A stretch of DNA of 64,000 bases from Arthrobacter sp. PsM3 (GTDB taxonomy: Bacteria; Actinomycetota; Actinomycetes; Actinomycetales; Micrococcaceae). Where the stretch lies: NCBI RefSeq assembly GCF_030433895.1, contig NZ_JARUXE010000007.1, forward strand, positions 1-64,000, read 5' to 3'. A model generated the notes under the pieces. The model ran no database searches. It saw nothing but the letters and a program-made list of their open reading frames with translations, and was not told the origin of the DNA. The translations under genes were made by a program, and so were the position numbers. Positions 28,799 through 46,486 of the stretch are shown in pieces; positions within the stretch are counted from its first letter, which is position 1, and each line of letters opens with the position of its first letter.

Positions 28799-28879
28799 GC
28801 CCGAGTGGCGGAATGGCAGACGCGCCGCACTCAAAATGCGGTATCGAAAGGTGTGTGGGTTCGAGTCCCACCTCGGGCA
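28799..28879 (+). tRNA. tRNA-Leu (anticodon CAA)
   Basis: The acceptor arms gcccgag (28799-28805) and ctcgggc (28872-28878) pair perfectly, with discriminator A at 28879. The anticodon stem ccgca/tgcgg encloses ctcaaaa, giving anticodon CAA. A variable arm follows, then gtggg-ttcgagt-cccac as the T arm. CCA is not encoded. The gene marks the boundary between conserved housekeeping genes on the left and a mosaic accessory region on the right. Confidence 0.95.
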
Positions 28880-28919
28880 CAGTGTTTCCGCAGGTCAGGG
28901 GCCTTTTTCGGTGTTTTTC

Positions 28920-28938
28920 GTGTGCACATTGTGCACAC
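28920..28938. promoter_or_regulatory. 19-base perfect palindrome downstream of tRNA-Leu
   Basis: GTGTGCACATTGTGCACAC has 9-base perfect arms around a single central T, 40 bases after the tRNA. The shape fits the operator of a dimeric regulator, but no regulator gene is adjacent. The ctttttc run just before it may be the tRNA terminator. Confidence 0.4.
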
Positions 28939-29196
28939 TCTTACCTCTGATCTGATTGCTCCGGGTGTTTGGGGTCCCGGAAAGACTATTTGGTTGTCTG
29001 GGGGAGCGGCTGCCTACGGCGGACCGGGTACCGCCCCGCGGGGTCTCTGCTGGGAGTTCATCCTCGTTCGTCCTTTCGTTGGGTTTTGCGTTCAGTACTT
29101 CATGGTGGCTAGGGCCGCCTGCAACATGATTTGCTGACTATTTCTTTGATCGACCTTGGGTTGTGGCTGGTCCGGAATTTCTGCTCTGATACCTGT
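28939..29196. other. Stretch without a recognisable gene
   Basis: About 260 bases with no ORF showing protein-like composition. GC content looks lower than in the flanking operons. Nothing else was recognised. Confidence 0.5.
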
Positions 29197-29913
29197 TCAT
29201 GCAGGAATGCGGAGGGAACGGCATGACATGGCGACCGATCCGGAGCCGATCATGAGCTCGCTGAGCCGGGCCAGTTCGTCATCGCCACGGAATAGGGCGT
29301 TGATCATGCTTACTAGACGCTTGGTTCCGTTCCCGGCGCGGTAGAGCGCCGCGGAAGGCTGACCCAAACGGTCGCTCACGGCCCAGGAGAAAGCATTGCT
29401 CATCTGTCTTTCGGCGTTCTTCACAACTGGCATACTCTTCCAGGCCTCGCCGAAGACGGCACCATCGATAGCTCTCACCGGAATGCATGGGTGCGAGGCG
29501 CCCAGCTCGCCTTCTCCGACGCCAAGCGCGCTGCGATCGGCGATGAGCAGATCGGCCAAATCCTCGCGTCAAGTCCCATCGGCACCGCCGGCGTTTGGCC
29601 CGCTTAATCGGTCTGAGAGTTCATCGAGAACATTGAGTCGCCCCCACCGCCCCCGCACTTCCGCATGATTCAGCGCGGACGACTTCGGAAACTGACAGTC
29701 GGGCCCGCCATGCAGGCTATGGCTGCAAGGGTCAGGATCTGGAGCGGTGTCGAAGCGCGTAGGGTCCCACTCGGTGTTCTGGTTACGGGACAGAAGCACC
29801 GAGAGGGTGGCGAAGCCATCTTGGCCCTGCCACCCTTCTGGGCGTGTCCACGTCGCAATCAAACTCAGGCTGTTTTGCAGGGTGCTACCGGCAGTGGGCG
29901 CGAGTACCGCCAT
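29197..29913 (-). pseudogene. Unidentified ORF interrupted by an in-frame stop
   Basis: A single minus-strand frame runs from ATG 29913 to the stop at 29197 (about 238 codons), broken only by TGA at 29571-29569. Upstream part: MAVLAPTAGSTLQNSLSLIA, then RPEGWQGQDGFATLSVLLSR. Downstream part: REDLADLLIADRSALGVGEG and AVSDRLGQPSAALYRAGNG, then KRLVSMINALFRGDDELARL. Both halves look protein-like, with amphipathic helices near the end, and the frame is preserved across the stop. The product is not recognised. It could be a decaying gene, two short genes, or an error at the TGA. Confidence 0.45.
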
Positions 29914-29939: not shown

Positions 29940-30494
29940 TTAGTAGCTTCCTCCAGCGGTAAGGGATACGGCCCCGACAGGGTGCCAGATGGTCTTGATT
30001 TCCATGAACGCGCGGATTCGGGCAGTTCCCGGCGCCGCCCGGAGGTTGGGTTCGCCCCGTGGGGAGTAGACCCTCTTGACGGTTCCCGAAGCGGCTTCTG
30101 TCAGAGAAATGCGGAGTTCCTGGCTGGCCGCGGATAGGTCGAGGGCGTTGACGTCGGCGTGCGAGGCCAAGTACGGCATGATTTCCGCGGCTTGTCCTGT
30201 GAGAATGTTGACCACGCCGTTTGGCAGGTCGCTGGTTGCCAGGGTTTCGGCGAAGAGAATGGCGATGTTGGGCGTGTCTTTGTCGGCGACCAGAACGACC
30301 GAGTTACCGCTGCAGATGATGGGGGCGATGGCTGCCACGAGTCCGAGCAGAGGGGAGTCAGCGGGCGCGATAGCGGCTACTACCCCTGTTGGCTCGGGGG
30401 CTGAGTATGAAAAGTAGGGGCCCGATACTGGGTTTGCGCCGCCGAATACCGCCGCGAGCTTGTCAGTCCATCCCGAGTAGTGAATTTCTTTCGC
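29940..30494 (-). pseudogene. C-terminal remnant of an aldehyde dehydrogenase
   Basis: The minus-strand frame is open from 30494 to its stop at 29940. It reads GWTDKLAAVFGGANPVSGPY, PEPTGVVAAIAPADSPLLGL, PIICSGNSVVLVADKDTP, ETLATSDLPNGVVNILTGQA, HADVNALDLSA and FMEIKTIWHPVG. This order matches the later part of an aldehyde dehydrogenase of the actinobacterial type that ends in a KTxWHP segment. An in-frame TGA at 30497-30495 sits just upstream, and the N-terminal NAD-domain part is missing. The first candidate start inside is 30338. A functional dehydrogenase is unlikely. Confidence 0.8.
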
Positions 30495-30569: not shown

Positions 30570-30998
30570 ATGATGGACCGGGAGGATGTGGCGCCGATGG
30601 GGTCGCAGAACAACGCCGGACGGGAGCGTTGGGAGCGCCGGCTTTCGGACGCAGAAGCTCAGAGACGCAGGGACTCCGAACTGGCCCGCTACCTTGAGAA
30701 GACAAGTCTGCTCGTGCCGGGGGCACTCAGAAAATGGTGCGACCAGATGGGCATCCTGGAGCTCCCCGAGGTCACGGTCAGGAATCTGGAGTGCACCCTG
30801 GAAGGCTTCACCCGGCGGGCCAAATACCAGATCGACTTCACGGTGAACGGGCTGCAGTTCAGAGGCAAGGTCGTGTACACCGATGACAGATGCCAGTACA
30901 AGGTGCGTCTGGTCTGGCCGAACGGCGCCCAGGGACCGACGATCACCAGCGTCGAGGCGCTGACGGCTGCACTTGCCGGTGCCGATGCCCCGGGCTAA
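30570..30998 (+). CDS. Hypothetical protein, 142 residues
   Basis: ATG 30570 (or 30573) follows cgggggag. The protein has a charged helical N-terminal third (RERWERRLSDAEAQRRRDSE), then a compact region with PEVTVRNLECTLEGFTRRAK and VNGLQFRGKVVYTDDRCQYK. It ends with SVEALTAALAGA, which suggests an alternating beta fold. No signal peptide or membrane segment. I do not recognise the family. It starts just behind the decayed aldehyde dehydrogenase and points away from it. Confidence 0.6.
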   Translation: MMDREDVAPMGSQNNAGRERWERRLSDAEAQRRRDSELARYLEKTSLLVPGALRKWCDQMGILELPEVTVRNLECTLEGFTRRAKYQIDFTVNGLQFRGKVVYTDDRCQYKVRLVWPNGAQGPTITSVEALTAALAGADAPG

Positions 30999-31354: not shown

Positions 31355-34300
31355 TCACACAAGTTCGGGCTGGGCTCCGCGGGGGTCGGTCCAGGGGCTG
31401 ACGGGGTTACCGATCCAGTAACTGCCCGCGGGGACGGTCTCCCCGCGCATGACCAGGGACGCAGGCCCGACGGTGCCGCCGGCCCCGATCCGGGCAGCTG
31501 GGAGGATGACGCCATGCGGACCCATGGTCGCCCCGGCATCGAGGGTGACAGTGTCGATGCTCATTACCCGGTCATGGAAGAGATGAGTCTGGACCACGCA
31601 GCCGCGGTTGACGGTTGAATTCGGGCCTAAAGTGACGAGGTCCGCTTCCGGGAGCCAGTAGCTTTCGCACCAGGTCCCGGCGCCGATGTGGGCGCCGAGT
31701 GCCCGCAGCCACCACACCAGGGCCGGGGTACCGGCCGCGGCTCGGGCGAACCAGGGAGCTGTGACCATTTCGATGAAGGTGTCCACGACCTCGTTGCGCC
31801 AGATGAATGAACTCCACAGCGGGTGTTCCCCGGCGCGGATCCGTCCCACCAGCAACCATTTTGCCGCAACGGAGCTTCCGGCGGCCACGGCCCCGGCGCC
31901 CAGGACCACTACGGTTCCCAGCAGTGCCGCGACGAGGTAGCCGGCGCGCGTGGCCAGGAGATCCAGGACGGCCAGCACGCCCGCGGCGATGGCGGCCGTG
32001 AGGATGACCGGAATGCCCCGGCCGAGCTCCCAGCAGGACCTGTACACCTTCAGCCGCAGCGGCGGGTCGAATGTCAGGCTCTGGTCCATGTCCATTCGTG
32101 CCCGGCGCAGCCGGACCGGGGGGCTGCCCAGCCAGGATGTCCCGGACTTGGCCTTCGCCGGTGTCGCGGACAGGACCGCGACGAGCGAGTTTTTCGGGAC
32201 GCTGCGCCCGGCCCCGGTCATGCCGGAATTGCCTAGGAACGCCCGTTTTCCGATCTTGGCCGGCCCGATCTTCATCCAGCCGCCGCCGAGTTCGTACGAG
32301 GCGATCATGGTGTCATCGGCAAGAAACGCCCCGTCTCCGACAGTTGTCATCGACGGCAGCAATAGTACGGTGGACGCTTCCACGTTGTTGCCCACGGTGG
32401 CGCCAAGGAGCCGCAGCCAGACCGGGGTGAAGAGGCTGGCGTAAAGCGGAAAGAGAAGGTCCCGGGCGATGTCCAGCACGCGTTCGGTGGCCCAGACCCG
32501 CCAGCCGATGAGGCTGCGGACCCGGTAGTGGCCCGGGCTCAGGCCAAGGCCCAGCAGCCTGACGATGGCGGCGATCAGGATCATGTTGGAGAGGAACCAG
32601 GTGACCGCCGCTGCCGGGACCGCCCAGAGCAGCACTGGCCACGAGGATGAGAGTGAGTCCTGACCGCGGATGGCCCAGACCACCACCAGGGCTCCTGCAG
32701 CCGCCGATACATAGGGGATGGTGGCCAGCAGCGCGGAGGCCAGGGCATAGCCGGGAAACCACATCCACGCGCCGGGTTTCGCCGGCGGCGCGGCGGGCCA
32801 GTCCTGCTTTGCTTTGCCGAGTCGTTGTGCCGGCGAGCCGGCGAACCGCTGGTTGGCTTTGACTTTCCCCAGGACCGCCGAGCCCGGGGCGATTTCGGCT
32901 CCTGCGCCGATCCTCGTGCCGGGCATCAGGGTGCTGCGTGAACCCACGGTGGCGCCGGGTCCGACCCGGATGTGTCCGATGTGTACCAGATCGCCGTCGA
33001 TCCACCATCCGGACAGGTCCACTTCGGGTTCGATGGAGCATCCGGGGCCCAGGCTCAGCATTCCTGTGACGGGCGGGACGGAATGCAGGTCCACGTCCTT
33101 GCCGATCCTCGCCCCAAGGGCACGCGCGTAGTAGGGGATCCAGGGCGCCCCGGCCAGGCTGACGGCGCCCGAGAGGTCGGAGATCTGTTCGGCGAGCCAC
33201 AGACGCAGGTGCACCTTCCCGGAGCGCGGGTAGCTGCCCGGGGTGACGCCGCGCAGCAGCAGCCGGGCCGCTGCCGCGGAGACAGCCATCCTTCCCCACG
33301 GGCTAACGAACACAGCCCAGGAGGCCAGTACCCACCACCAGGACACGGTCGGGGCTCCGCGGAGAACGCCTGCGGTGGCAACGATGTTGTTCAAGGCCAT
33401 CAGGTAGGTTAGCCACCGCATGGACACCAGCAGCTGCAACGGGATCCCTGCCAGGAGCTGGAAGGTTTGGGACTTCAGGGCGGTCGGCTTCACCGCGCGT
33501 TCTGTCGCGGCGGCTGCCTCGCTGCCGCCGTCCGGGGCGGACAGGCGCGCCAGTTCCACGAGTGCCCCGAGCCGCGGGCGGGCGTAGACGTCCGCGACGG
33601 TGATCGTCGGGTAGCACGCGCAGGGCGGAGACCAGACGGGCGGCGGCCAGGCTGCCGCCGCCGTGGGCGAAGAAGTCCGCGTCCAGGCCTTCCGGGGCAG
33701 CCCCCAGGACAGCGGCCCATTGCTCCACGATCCACCTGGACCTGTCGTCCAGGTCCATTTCGAGGCCCGGGCCAGGCACCCCGGTCGGTACGGCGGCAAT
33801 TGGCCAGGGCAGGGCATTCCGGTCGACCTTGCCGCTGGTCTTGACCGGCAGGGAATCAACGGTGGTCAGCATAAGGACCAGGGCCGCGGGCAGCCGGGCG
33901 GACAGCAGGCCGCGGGCGGCGGATAGGTCCGGTGCCGTATTGGGTGCGGGCACGAGGTAGCCGACGAGGATTTGGTTGCCTGCGGCCGTGGTTTGGACGG
34001 CAGCGGCCGCTCCGTGGATGCCCGGCAGGGACTGGAGGGCGGCGTCGATTTCGCCCAGTTCGATGCGGCGGCCGCCGAGTTTGACCTGTTCATCAGCGCG
34101 ACCGACAAAGATCAGGCCTTCGCTTTCGAAGCGGACCAGGTCGCCGCTGCGATAGGCCCGTTCCCAGCCGAGCGTGTCCATGGGCGCGTACTTCTCCGCG
34201 TCCTTTGAGGGGTCCAGGTATTTTGCCAGGCCCACACCACCGATAATGAGTTCGCCGATCACGCCCTCCGCCACGGGGATCCCCGCCGGGTCAACGACGG

Positions 34301-35267
34301 CCAGGTCCCAGCCATCCAGGGGCAGGCCGATCCGCACGGGGCCCTTGCCGTCCATGCGTGCAGCGCAGGCCACTACGGTGGCCTCTGTAGGCCCATAGGT
34401 ATTCCAGAGCTCACGGTCATCCACGGCGAGCCGAGCGGCGAGTTCCGCCGGGCAGGCCTCGCCGCCGAAGATCAGCAACCGGACGGCTTCAAGGGACTCG
34501 GCCGGCCAGAGCCCCGCGAGTGTGGGGACGGTGGAGACCACAGTGATGCCATTGGTGATCAGCCACGGACCCAAATCCATTCCGGTCCGGACCAGAGACC
34601 GCGGCGCCGGGACCAGGCAGGCTCCGTTGCGCCAGGCCAGCCACATTTCCTCACACGAAGCATCGAACGCCACGGACAGCCCTGCCAGGACCCGGTCCGA
34701 GGTATTCAACGGCTCTGCCGACAGGAACATGCGCGCTTCGGCGTCCACGAACGCTGCAGCGGAGCGATGCGTGACTGCCACACCTTTCGGGGTGCCGGTG
34801 GATCCAGAGGTGAATATCACCCACGCGTCATCGGCCGGTGTCGCCTCACGCGGAGCTTGGAAGGGCCGCATCCGGTCCGGGGAGGTGATGATTTCATCGG
34901 CACGCAGGATCCCGGCGACCCCGGCCTCAGCAAAGACCAAGCGTGCCCGCTCGTCAGGGTCATCGGCGTCGACCGGAACATAAGCGGCGCCCACATGCAG
35001 GATGGCCAGGATCGCAACGTAGAGCTCGTTTGTACCGGAGGGGATCCGCACGCCGACCTTGTCGCCCGCGCCGATCCCGGCCTGATGGAGGTCCCGGCCA
35101 TAGGCCTTCACTTCAAGGAGAAGCTCGGCATAACTGAGAGAGGTCCGCCCGTCATCGAGCGCCGACGCGTCAGGAAACCGGTGGGCTGTTTCCTGGAGAA
35201 TTTGAATCAAGGTGCGCGGCGGGGCGGCGGCAGCAGCGCGGGCCAGTTGCGGGCGGTGAGTTGTCAC
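31355..35267 (-). pseudogene. Pls/PosA-like non-ribosomal peptide synthetase (A-T-membrane-hexapeptide domains), frameshifted
   Basis: The first part is an adenylation domain: FTSGSTGTPKGVAVTHR, NTYGPTEATVV, AYRSGDLVRF, GRADEQVKLGGRRIELGEID and KTSGKVDRNALP. A carrier domain follows with FFAHGGGSLAAARLVSALR (Ser for phosphopantetheine). The remaining ~750 residues are in another frame. They begin YPTITVADVYARPRLGALVE and hold several membrane segments plus three left-handed beta-helix (hexapeptide) regions. This is the layout of epsilon-poly-lysine synthetase-like enzymes. The frames switch at about 33605-33625; restoring two missing bases would give LRxRYPTITV. The start is taken at GTG 35267, although the frame opens at 35474. 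Possibly a sequencing error rather than decay. Confidence 0.75.
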
Positions 35268-35408
35268 AAGACCAGTGTGGCCAAGAATCGGGTTTATCGG
35301 GTGGCTGTCCAGTGAAGCGCCCGCCAAAGTTACGGAACCGCCACAGGACCTGAGGGGCCGGTCCTGGCCGGAAACCCCCGACGCAGACTGTCCGGGAGGC
35401 GCTCCCAA

Positions 35409-35590
35409 CTTTTGGAGCTTCAGCAGCTCGATCTGCAGCAGACGCTGTTCCAGCTCGTACTGCTCGCGGGTCATTCATATCTCATAGGCGTAGCCTCCGC
35501 CAGGTGTCGACTGGCGTCCCGTGGGGGCGATAGCAGAGGGTCGTCGTAATCGTCGTCCAGAACGGTGAAACCGTGTCGGACCAAGGCATA
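35409..35590 (-). pseudogene. ppk2: 5' remnant of a polyphosphate kinase 2 gene
   Basis: Minus-strand translation in changing frames gives GFTVLDDDYDDP, then VDTWR, then GYAYEI, then MTREQYELEQRLLQIELLKL. In this order and spacing they match the N-terminal lead-in of actinobacterial PPK2 proteins (V(D/E)TWREGYPYE, MTREQYE, LLQIELLKLQ). The match stops before the Walker A motif, and the sequence then runs into the NRPS frame. Small indels break the frame at least twice. The last segment is in frame with the adenylation domain, so it forms an artificial N-terminus for that ORF. Confidence 0.65.
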
Positions 35591-35759
35591 ATATTTCATC
35601 GGCTGGACTTACTGTGCTGCCATGAACATTCAACAAACACGCTGAGTGCGACGCAAGGGGGAAGACCCCGGCAGATGCCGCTGGGTGGGACTACCCGCTG
35701 TGCTGACGGTTCCGAGTTGGCCAGACCGGGGTCCAGGCGAATTTGGGGGCCTCAGGTCC

Positions 35760-37543: not shown

Positions 37544-39067
37544 ATGGCCGTGACTGAGAAGTTGGAAGTGGAACGAAAATTCGACGTCGGCGAATCGGAC
37601 GAGTTGCCGGCTTTCACTTCCATCGTCGGGGTGGACAGCGTCGGGACGACTGTGGATCAAAAACTTGATGCCGTGTACTTCGACACGTCGGCGTTGGCGC
37701 TGGCGTCCCGGCGGGTCACGTTGCGCCGGCGCACCGGGGGTAAGGACGCCGGGTGGCATCTGAAGCTGCCTGGGGCCGAGGGCGAACGGCGCGAAATCAC
37801 GGAGCCGTTGAACGAGGACCCGGACACTGTGCCGCCCCGGCTGAAGGCGTTGGTGCTGGTTCATGTCAGGGACCAGGAGCTGATGCCGGTCGCGCACCTG
37901 AAAACCCGTCGCACAGCGATTCCCCTGATCGCAGCCGACGGAACTGTTCTGGCGGAATTCAGTGATGACCGGGTGGAGTCCCGGATGCTGCTGGAACCGG
38001 CCGAAAGTGCTGCCTGGCGGGAGTGGGAGGTCGAACTGGTCGACGGTCACCGGGAGGTCCTGGATGCCGCCGAAACCGTGTTTGCCTTGTTGGGTCACCG
38101 GCCGGCGGTGCTTCCGTCCAAGCTGGCCCGCGCCCTTGGCACCAGGTATCCGGCTGCCACGCCCCCAATGCCTCGCCCGCGGCGTAAGGGGCCGGCCTCA
38201 GCGGTGTTTCTTTCCTATCTTCACGAGCAGGTCGAGGCCCTGAAAATCCATGACCCCGGGGTCCGGGAGGGAGCCCCGGATGCGGTCCACCAGCTCCGGG
38301 TAGCCGCACGCCGGATGCGGTCCGTGCTGGCAAGCTTCCGCCCATTGACCGACAAGGGGACCGCCCAGCTCCTGCGGGAAGAACTTCAATGGCTCGCAGG
38401 GACAGTCGGTACGGCCCGGGACCTTGAGGTCATGCGGACCCAGCTGAATGAGCTGATTGGCGCCGAACCCCCGGAGCTGGTCATGGGGCCGGTGAAAGAG
38501 CGCGTCGAGGACCAGCTCGGGGCCGCCTATGAGGCTGCCCTCGCCGACGGATTGGCTGCCATGGGAAGCGAGCGGTATTTCCGGCTTCTGGATGAACTCG
38601 ATGGCTTCGTGGCGGCCCCTCCGCTGGCCGGACCGGCCCACAAGAAGGCCGAGGGGACGGTGGGCCGGCTGGTCAATGCCGAACGGAAGCGCCTGAAGGG
38701 GGCGGTGAGGAACCTCGAGGGCGTCTCCGATGATGATTCTGCCAATGCCACGCTGCACGAGATCCGGAAGAGCGCAAAACGTCTTCGGTACGCGGCTGAG
38801 GCGGCCGTCCCGATTTTTGGAAAGCAGGCCGCCAGGCTGGCGCGCACCGCGGAAGAAGTTCAGACCATTCTGGGCGATCATCAGGACAGTGTCGTGATCA
38901 GGGAAAAATTGCGGTCGCTCGCCACAGGGCCCGGGGAGGGCGGTGGGGGAACCGGATTCACCTTCGGGCGGCTCCACGCACTGGAGCAGCACCGCGGAGC
39001 CGAGGCCCGCGCCCGGTTCGTGACCCTATGGCAGGAATCACCGCCCAGGCCGCTCCGGCGGAAATAG
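37544..39067 (+). CDS. CYTH and CHAD domain protein
   Basis: A 507-residue cytoplasmic protein. The N-terminal CYTH domain (about 1-205) has the diagnostic ExExK-type start LEVERKF and acidic/basic strands lining a triphosphate tunnel (DAVYFDT, RRRTGGKDAGWHLKLPGAEG, EWEVELVDG). The C-terminal CHAD domain (about 225-500) is helical with conserved His and Lys/Arg (VHQLRVAARRMRSVL, LHEIRKSAKRLRYAAEA). CYTH domains act on inorganic triphosphate or nucleotides; CHAD domains bind polyphosphate. Together with the PPK2 remnant nearby this points to polyphosphate handling. Stand-alone promoter expected. Confidence 0.93.
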   Translation: MAVTEKLEVERKFDVGESDELPAFTSIVGVDSVGTTVDQKLDAVYFDTSALALASRRVTLRRRTGGKDAGWHLKLPGAEGERREITEPLNEDPDTVPPRLKALVLVHVRDQELMPVAHLKTRRTAIPLIAADGTVLAEFSDDRVESRMLLEPAESAAWREWEVELVDGHREVLDAAETVFALLGHRPAVLPSKLARALGTRYPAATPPMPRPRRKGPASAVFLSYLHEQVEALKIHDPGVREGAPDAVHQLRVAARRMRSVLASFRPLTDKGTAQLLREELQWLAGTVGTARDLEVMRTQLNELIGAEPPELVMGPVKERVEDQLGAAYEAALADGLAAMGSERYFRLLDELDGFVAAPPLAGPAHKKAEGTVGRLVNAERKRLKGAVRNLEGVSDDDSANATLHEIRKSAKRLRYAAEAAVPIFGKQAARLARTAEEVQTILGDHQDSVVIREKLRSLATGPGEGGGGTGFTFGRLHALEQHRGAEARARFVTLWQESPPRPLRRK

Positions 39068-46018: not shown

Positions 46019-46486
46019 ATGTGGGCCGGAGGTCCGGTGGTGCTGGGCGTCCCCTGGCAGCCGACTGACCTGCTGATCCGGGCCGGTGAAGACCTGGCCG
46101 CGATCCTGGGCGTGCACCTTATCTGCGCATTTGTGGATCCGGCGAGCTACCTGACCGAGTGGGAGCCAACCACCTCACGGGTGGGAGCCTCGCTCGATCC
46201 GGCGCCTAACCGGGAAACGGAGTTCCCGGCCTCGGAAATCCTGGACAGACTCCGGAACATTCTGGGCCCTCCCGGACAGGAATGGACTTTCAGGGTGCTC
46301 AACGGAGAAGTCTCCCAAGCGCTGACCCGGCTGGCTGAAAGCACGGACGCTTCGATGCTGATCGTCGGCGGCCAGCGGCCCGGTAACCTGGCCGGAATGA
46401 CGCGGTTGCTGGAAGGTTCTGTCAGTATCTCCCTCACACGCTCGCAGCCCAGACCCGTCATGGTCATCCCGCACCTGGGCCCATAA
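46019..46486 (+). CDS. Universal stress protein family (UspA)
   Basis: 155-residue alpha/beta protein. GGPVVLGVPWQPTDLLIRAG is the first strand-helix, ALTRLAESTDASMLIVGGQR the nucleotide-region helix and strand, and GSVSISLTRSQPRPVMVIPH the end with the S-x8-PVxVxP pattern of ATP-binding UspA proteins. The glycine motif GxxGxxxx is only partly kept (RPGNLAGMTRLLEGSVS). The ATG has gggaggctga upstream. Role: stress survival, substrate unknown. Confidence 0.85.
   Translation: MWAGGPVVLGVPWQPTDLLIRAGEDLAAILGVHLICAFVDPASYLTEWEPTTSRVGASLDPAPNRETEFPASEILDRLRNILGPPGQEWTFRVLNGEVSQALTRLAESTDASMLIVGGQRPGNLAGMTRLLEGSVSISLTRSQPRPVMVIPHLGP

Follow-up and report, generated by a model that had tools for sequence, protein, structure and literature searches.

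A frame-broken pls gene, probably a recently lost second copy, in accessory DNA of Arthrobacter sp. PsM3

The 64,000 nucleotides of DNA analysed here (the window), from the soil bacterium Arthrobacter sp. PsM3, carry a Pls/PosA-family NRPS gene, pls, on the minus strand at 31355-35267, whose reading frame is broken once as assembled. It is probably the redundant member of two epsilon-poly-L-lysine synthetase genes in this genome, lying in accessory DNA and inactivated very recently. The loss of function, redundancy as its cause and horizontal spread of the gene are what we infer from the evidence below. The gene seems an ordinary member of its family, either a redundant accessory copy lost recently or an intact gene that was mis-assembled, and we favour recent loss.

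Both the Pls family and the occurrence of Pls in Arthrobacter have been published; the accessible part of one report names Arthrobacter among the genera with Pls and describes a pls-peptidase context, and the same study put the pls gene of Corynebacterium variabile into Streptomyces coelicolor M145 behind the S. albulus pls promoter (PMC8117764). Added here are the second, intact pls, a separate lineage to which the window copy belongs, the bare surroundings of its open reading frame, and the unrelaxed constraint on its sequence. In a literature search mostly outside subscription journals we found no account of this locus under Arthrobacter polylysine synthetase, pseudogene or frameshift, or Arthrobacter tRNA-Leu islands.

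Domain structure and frame break

The gene is spread over two overlapping minus-strand frames. The upstream frame (33303-35474, 723 aa) holds the adenylation and carrier parts and the downstream frame (31355-33859, 834 aa) the membrane and condensation-like part. The limits come from ORFs, profile searches, alignment and tblastn, with the GTG start read from the sequence; the upper limit of 35267 proposed in the initial annotation stands, as a minus-strand GTG lies there and fits where homology begins. The downstream frame matches TIGR02353, the terminal domain, almost end to end (positions 2-695 of 695; 692 bits, cut-off 423), and the domain is intact at 31400-33463 (minus strand). This terminal domain, above its curated cut-off, makes the gene a member of the Pls/PosA family, and the six transmembrane segments and three tandem condensation-like domains expected of an epsilon-poly-L-lysine synthetase are covered solely by this match. 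The upstream frame scores 327 bits against the amino-acid adenylation profile TIGR01733 (cut-off 317). The nearest solved relative of the adenylation half is epsilon-poly-L-lysine synthase, PDB 7wew (E 1.6e-197), matched by residues 76-560 of the 723, which convert to an intact adenylation domain at 33795-35249 (minus strand). The carrier domain, with its Ser motif, is matched by Pfam PP-binding at profile positions 1-42 of 67 only (converted to 33618-33737, minus strand), so it is this domain that the break interrupts. As assembled the gene is a disrupted family member and does not encode a single-chain enzyme with a whole carrier.

Reading by motif gives D-A-E, S, I-G and T-V-V for nine pocket positions, which are identical in 7wew in an alignment read by eye. 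Counting repeats of a place, 131 of the 138 frames collected have this same set; four of the remaining seven have one slot that could not be read by motif and three differ in one slot. By sequence, then, the window gene has a lysine-type adenylation pocket, and the substrate of its enzyme would be lysine. The initial annotation had called the gene an epsilon-poly-lysine-synthetase-like NRPS, had given the order adenylation, carrier, membrane/condensation-like part, and had pointed to the binding pocket as a guide to substrate. The best match to 7wew and the equal pocket residues bear out the name and supply that guide, and TIGR01733, PP-binding and TIGR02353 recover the order.

In a working enzyme of this family the adenylation domain loads L-lysine onto the carrier Ser, and the lysine is then polymerised and exported through the membrane/condensation-like part. 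The window gene resembles Pls of the Streptomyces albulus type (7wew) in its adenylation-carrier-terminal order and its pocket residues. It differs from Pls of S. albulus and coryneforms in that its frame is broken in the carrier, it has no peptidase neighbour and its genome holds a second, intact canonical copy. PosA, the delta-poly-L-ornithine synthetase of Acinetobacter baumannii, has the TIGR02353 family and general design in common with the window gene, but its second pocket residue is Met, that of the window gene Ala; the accessible part of one report ties Ala there to lysine-activating members (PMC10522769).

When aligned with ten intact homologues, the window gene lacks two bases at about 33616, a place at which none of the ten has a gap. 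Alignment and tblastn put this net two-base shortfall at 33612-33618 (minus strand). All other internal indels, tabulated over the whole gene for six of the ten homologues, are multiples of three, and in these six, other lengths occur in unaligned ends only. Framed by the G171 orthologue, the remaining codons of the window gene contain no stop. Two intact orthologues used as tblastn queries each gave two collinear pieces joining at the break. The single lesion of about two bases at 33605-33625 first noticed by eye is thus the one that alignment, indel table and tblastn find, and the search of relatives proposed along with it found the frame intact, by alignment, in G171, G148, G093 and G020 of the same lineage.

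A second copy and two lineages

The source genome (G000) is a draft of 197 contigs, with the window on contig C175. An intact second pls of 1323 aa lies on contig C141, directly upstream of an M1 peptidase gene; the PldII-type peptidase operon is present at this copy and absent from the window copy. We searched 206 genus genomes with the window adenylation half (E <= 1e-100). There were matches in 168, and seven had two (G000, G020, G044, G093, G148, G171 and G184); third copies would be missed because two candidates were scored per genome. At E <= 1e-60 at least 170 of the 206 have a family match, and genomes with one, two, broken or no copies occur.

The window copy and ten others form one group of 11 rows (SH-aLRT 99) in a 122-row protein tree, built by a quick method from the collected copies only; one of the ten is the broken gene of G184. 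We call this group B-type, a label coined here, as is A-type. The C141 copy lies apart from it. Arthrobacter, Pseudarthrobacter and Paenarthrobacter are the named neighbours that turn up in the searches and in the tree. All of the two-match genomes except G044, whose second copy is unplaced in the tree, are B-type genomes, and the other five of the eleven (G009, G021, G122, G130 and G135) have one match each among the matches listed. In G171 and G148 the A-type copies, which correspond to that of C141, are within a few kilobases of pheS/pheT, and an argC-like gene and its neighbours are common to these two loci and that of C141; Pfam support for these neighbours covers one pheS and one argC-like gene, and contig C141 ends before pheS would show.

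Closest to the C141 copy in the tree is that of Arthrobacter sp. SO3 (L077, the same place as G014), in which we found one pls like that of C141 and no B-type copy. G014 also has a second TIGR02353 gene (L007, G014:C7:15672-17750; 731 bits, frame of 1464 aa), which was not accepted as a single frame with both halves of the window gene and is perhaps a different homopolymer synthetase. Contig JABBNV010000043.1 (L078) is labelled an Acidobacteria metagenome bin, yet its pls clusters with Psychromicrobium (Micrococcaceae); the contig is probably mis-binned.

Other copies are damaged too. The B-type gene of G184 has one frameshift, at a different place from that of the window, and pls of Arthrobacter sp. 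OVS8 (L137, a complete genome) has several frame changes. Frames shorter than 1250 aa account for 8 of 65 family matches in 61 sampled genomes (in G000, G002, G030, G046 and G053), and in the wider search at least two further genomes, G141 and G170, have short-frame matches among those listed. Damage is therefore not unique to this genome. A broken frame or missing peptidase was seen at three of six B-type loci with a second copy in the genome and at none of five without one, a difference short of significance (p 0.18).

Neighbourhood and accessory DNA beginning at tRNA-Leu

A peptidase frame accompanies 136 of the 138 loci with an intact pls frame. When repeats of a place are left out, this PldII-type partner, an M1-type peptidase, stands beside pls at 120 of 121 intact loci, as it does at the C141 copy; the sole exception is the B-type copy of G148. 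No peptidase frame lies in the window either. A peptidase remnant was sought downstream of it with seven peptidase frames: the strong matches fall inside pls, because the queries were stop-to-stop frames that extend into it, and the remaining matches are at chance level. Several hundred bases upstream of pls are common to the B-type orthologues G171, G093 and G020, and none of this DNA is found at the window or G148 copies. Those two copies have no common flanks directly upstream or downstream, and similar genes are scattered elsewhere in their regions. Because the G148 copy, without the peptidase and the upstream DNA, is open, a bare ORF is by itself no sign of a dead gene.

Just upstream of the window pls lies a fragment of a polyphosphate kinase 2 (PPK2) gene (35405-35628, minus strand), recognised by blastn to L058, L059 and L060, the L059 gene being PPK2 by Pfam. 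On the other side is an aldehyde dehydrogenase remnant (29940-30338, minus strand; Pfam Aldedh positions 145-232 of 461), and between it and pls an ORF of 142 aa on the plus strand (30570-30998) with a coding-like base pattern and no Pfam or NCBIfam match. B-type neighbourhoods recurrently contain, in shuffled order, genes for CYTH-CHAD, PPK2 or pieces of it, universal stress protein and sulfate permease. Such polyphosphate- or stress-linked genes lie at 35405-35628, 37544-39067 and 46019-46486 of the window and in L057-L059, L061, L063 and L064; some of these labels rest on similarity or by-eye reading. In L063 a peptidase gene is followed by one for a phosphopantetheinyl transferase.

The window pls sits in accessory DNA that starts at a tRNA-Leu (CAA) gene (28799-28880, plus strand). 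Collinearity with all six relatives compared stops just beyond it, at 28898-28913. Of the 29 ten-kilobase bins that follow this tRNA in G020, 20 have less than 10% of their bases matched in 240 kb of G184, and the B-type genes of both genomes lie in that stretch, among the few common blocks. The G+C content of these bins (0.58-0.67) contrasts weakly with 0.66 in the single bin before the tRNA. The B-type gene of G148 is 18 kb from a match resembling the tRNA-Leu end, on the same contig. That of G093 (3.40 Mb) is far from the tRNA-Leu site (0.44 Mb), which counts against a fixed location, and the contig of G171 is too short to place its B-type gene relative to tRNA-Leu.

A stretch of about 418 bases (28858-29275 in the window) starts inside the 3' end of this tRNA-Leu gene and occurs at full length ten times in the genome, window included. 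Copies lie on contigs C145, C146, C147, C148 and C150 of G000 and at loci L200-L205, and G014 has many. Thirteen aligned copies are identical in the 22-base tRNA end and differ in their arms (78-89% identity with the window copy); those from elsewhere than the window have a common left arm in place of the tRNA, and their neighbouring genes differ. They look like attachment-site junctions of elements targeting tRNA-Leu, and this recurring repeat may interest specialists more than the broken pls. Exact copies of the 22-base end number six in G128, six in G093, four each in G184, G153 and G050, three in G020, and two each in G052 and G167. In each of these eight genomes a single contig carries all copies, on the same strand and scattered across tens to hundreds of kilobases; in fragmented drafts they occur on both strands, as contig orientation could explain. 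The reversed control pattern had no match in any of the 13 genomes searched. In G014 a phage-integrase-family gene (L207:7121-8251) adjoins the same tRNA-Leu gene (L207:8338-8420), which marks it as an integration site.

Age and nature of the lesion

We counted private changes wherever the other four members of the close group agree on a codon. In the window gene 12 of these changes are non-synonymous and 81 synonymous; the four orthologues, each counted in turn, sum to 49 and 280 (Fisher p 0.74). As the window changes are as constrained as those of the intact orthologues, roughly 3% or less of the branch was neutral (a share of at most about 0.03 for a neutral ratio of 2.2 to 2.6), a rough bound because multiple changes within a codon were scored as one. 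Hence either the lesion is very recent or it is not real. Old decay is rejected, the private substitutions being as constrained as those of intact genes and no second lesion having been found. The view first taken of the lesion, as recent loss or sequencing error with frameshifting less likely, holds.

If the lesion is real, an adenylation domain with a truncated carrier would be translated, and, as the break is inside the carrier, the polymerising half would not be made in frame. Polymer synthesis would be kept going by the intact pls and peptidase on C141, so losing the window copy should not abolish it. The single lesion, the second copy, the lack of the peptidase and shared upstream DNA, the unrelaxed constraint and the broken B-type gene of G184 all speak for such a recent loss; against it count the 197-contig draft, the equally bare and intact copy of G148, and the p of 0.18 for the association of damage with a second copy.

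The lesion as assembled is compatible with sequencing or assembly error as well as with loss, and error, which would leave the organism with two intact pls genes, is a serious if lesser possibility. One lesion in 3.9 kb of an otherwise undecayed gene, in a draft of 197 contigs, could be artificial; constraint unrelaxed to the present is exactly what an error would give, and other collected pls genes look error-prone, such as L137 with its several frame changes in a complete genome. Errors of some older and long-read sequencing methods concentrate in homopolymer runs, but in the alignment the shortfall lies outside any such run, and the stripping of the usual neighbours from the gene fits real decay.

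Two further readings would keep the gene working across the break. Programmed ribosomal frameshifting, giving full-length enzyme, would account for the unrelaxed constraint, and the first upstream-frame codon past the break is CTA, a rare Leu codon (16 of 1295 in the 59 window ORFs called by a codon-position G+C rule) at which ribosomes might pause. In the ten aligned homologues, among them the closest, the frame does not change at this place, however, and programmed frameshifting is left without comparative support; a non-systematic look identified no known frameshift motif, and we consider it highly improbable. The adenylation and membrane halves might instead be made separately and cooperate, as the absence of other lesions in either half would allow. 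Yet the carrier itself is cut (42 of 67 positions), so neither half holds a whole carrier, and both halves are in one frame in all 138 intact frames, though these were so defined; this reading too is very hard to credit. We therefore keep to recent loss of a redundant copy as the probable explanation.

More widely, it is conceivable, though we think it unlikely, that B-type pls is an accessory polylysine-synthetase lineage moving between Arthrobacter-group genomes, mostly as cargo of the tRNA-Leu(CAA)-anchored variable region, with or without its peptidase, and lost again where the core pls-peptidase pair is present.

Polylysine is sold as an antimicrobial. In Streptomyces, according to the accessible part of one report, PldII is coupled to pls and repressing PldII lowered tolerance to the polymer; in S. 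albulus it is reportedly needed for self-protection (PMC9223678). The copies missing this partner, in the window and, intact, in G148, are natural tests of the self-protection idea, and the genus, with its genomes of one, two, broken or no pls copies, is a natural comparison set. If the accessory-lineage reading were true, polycation synthesis would be in continuing gain and loss among close relatives.
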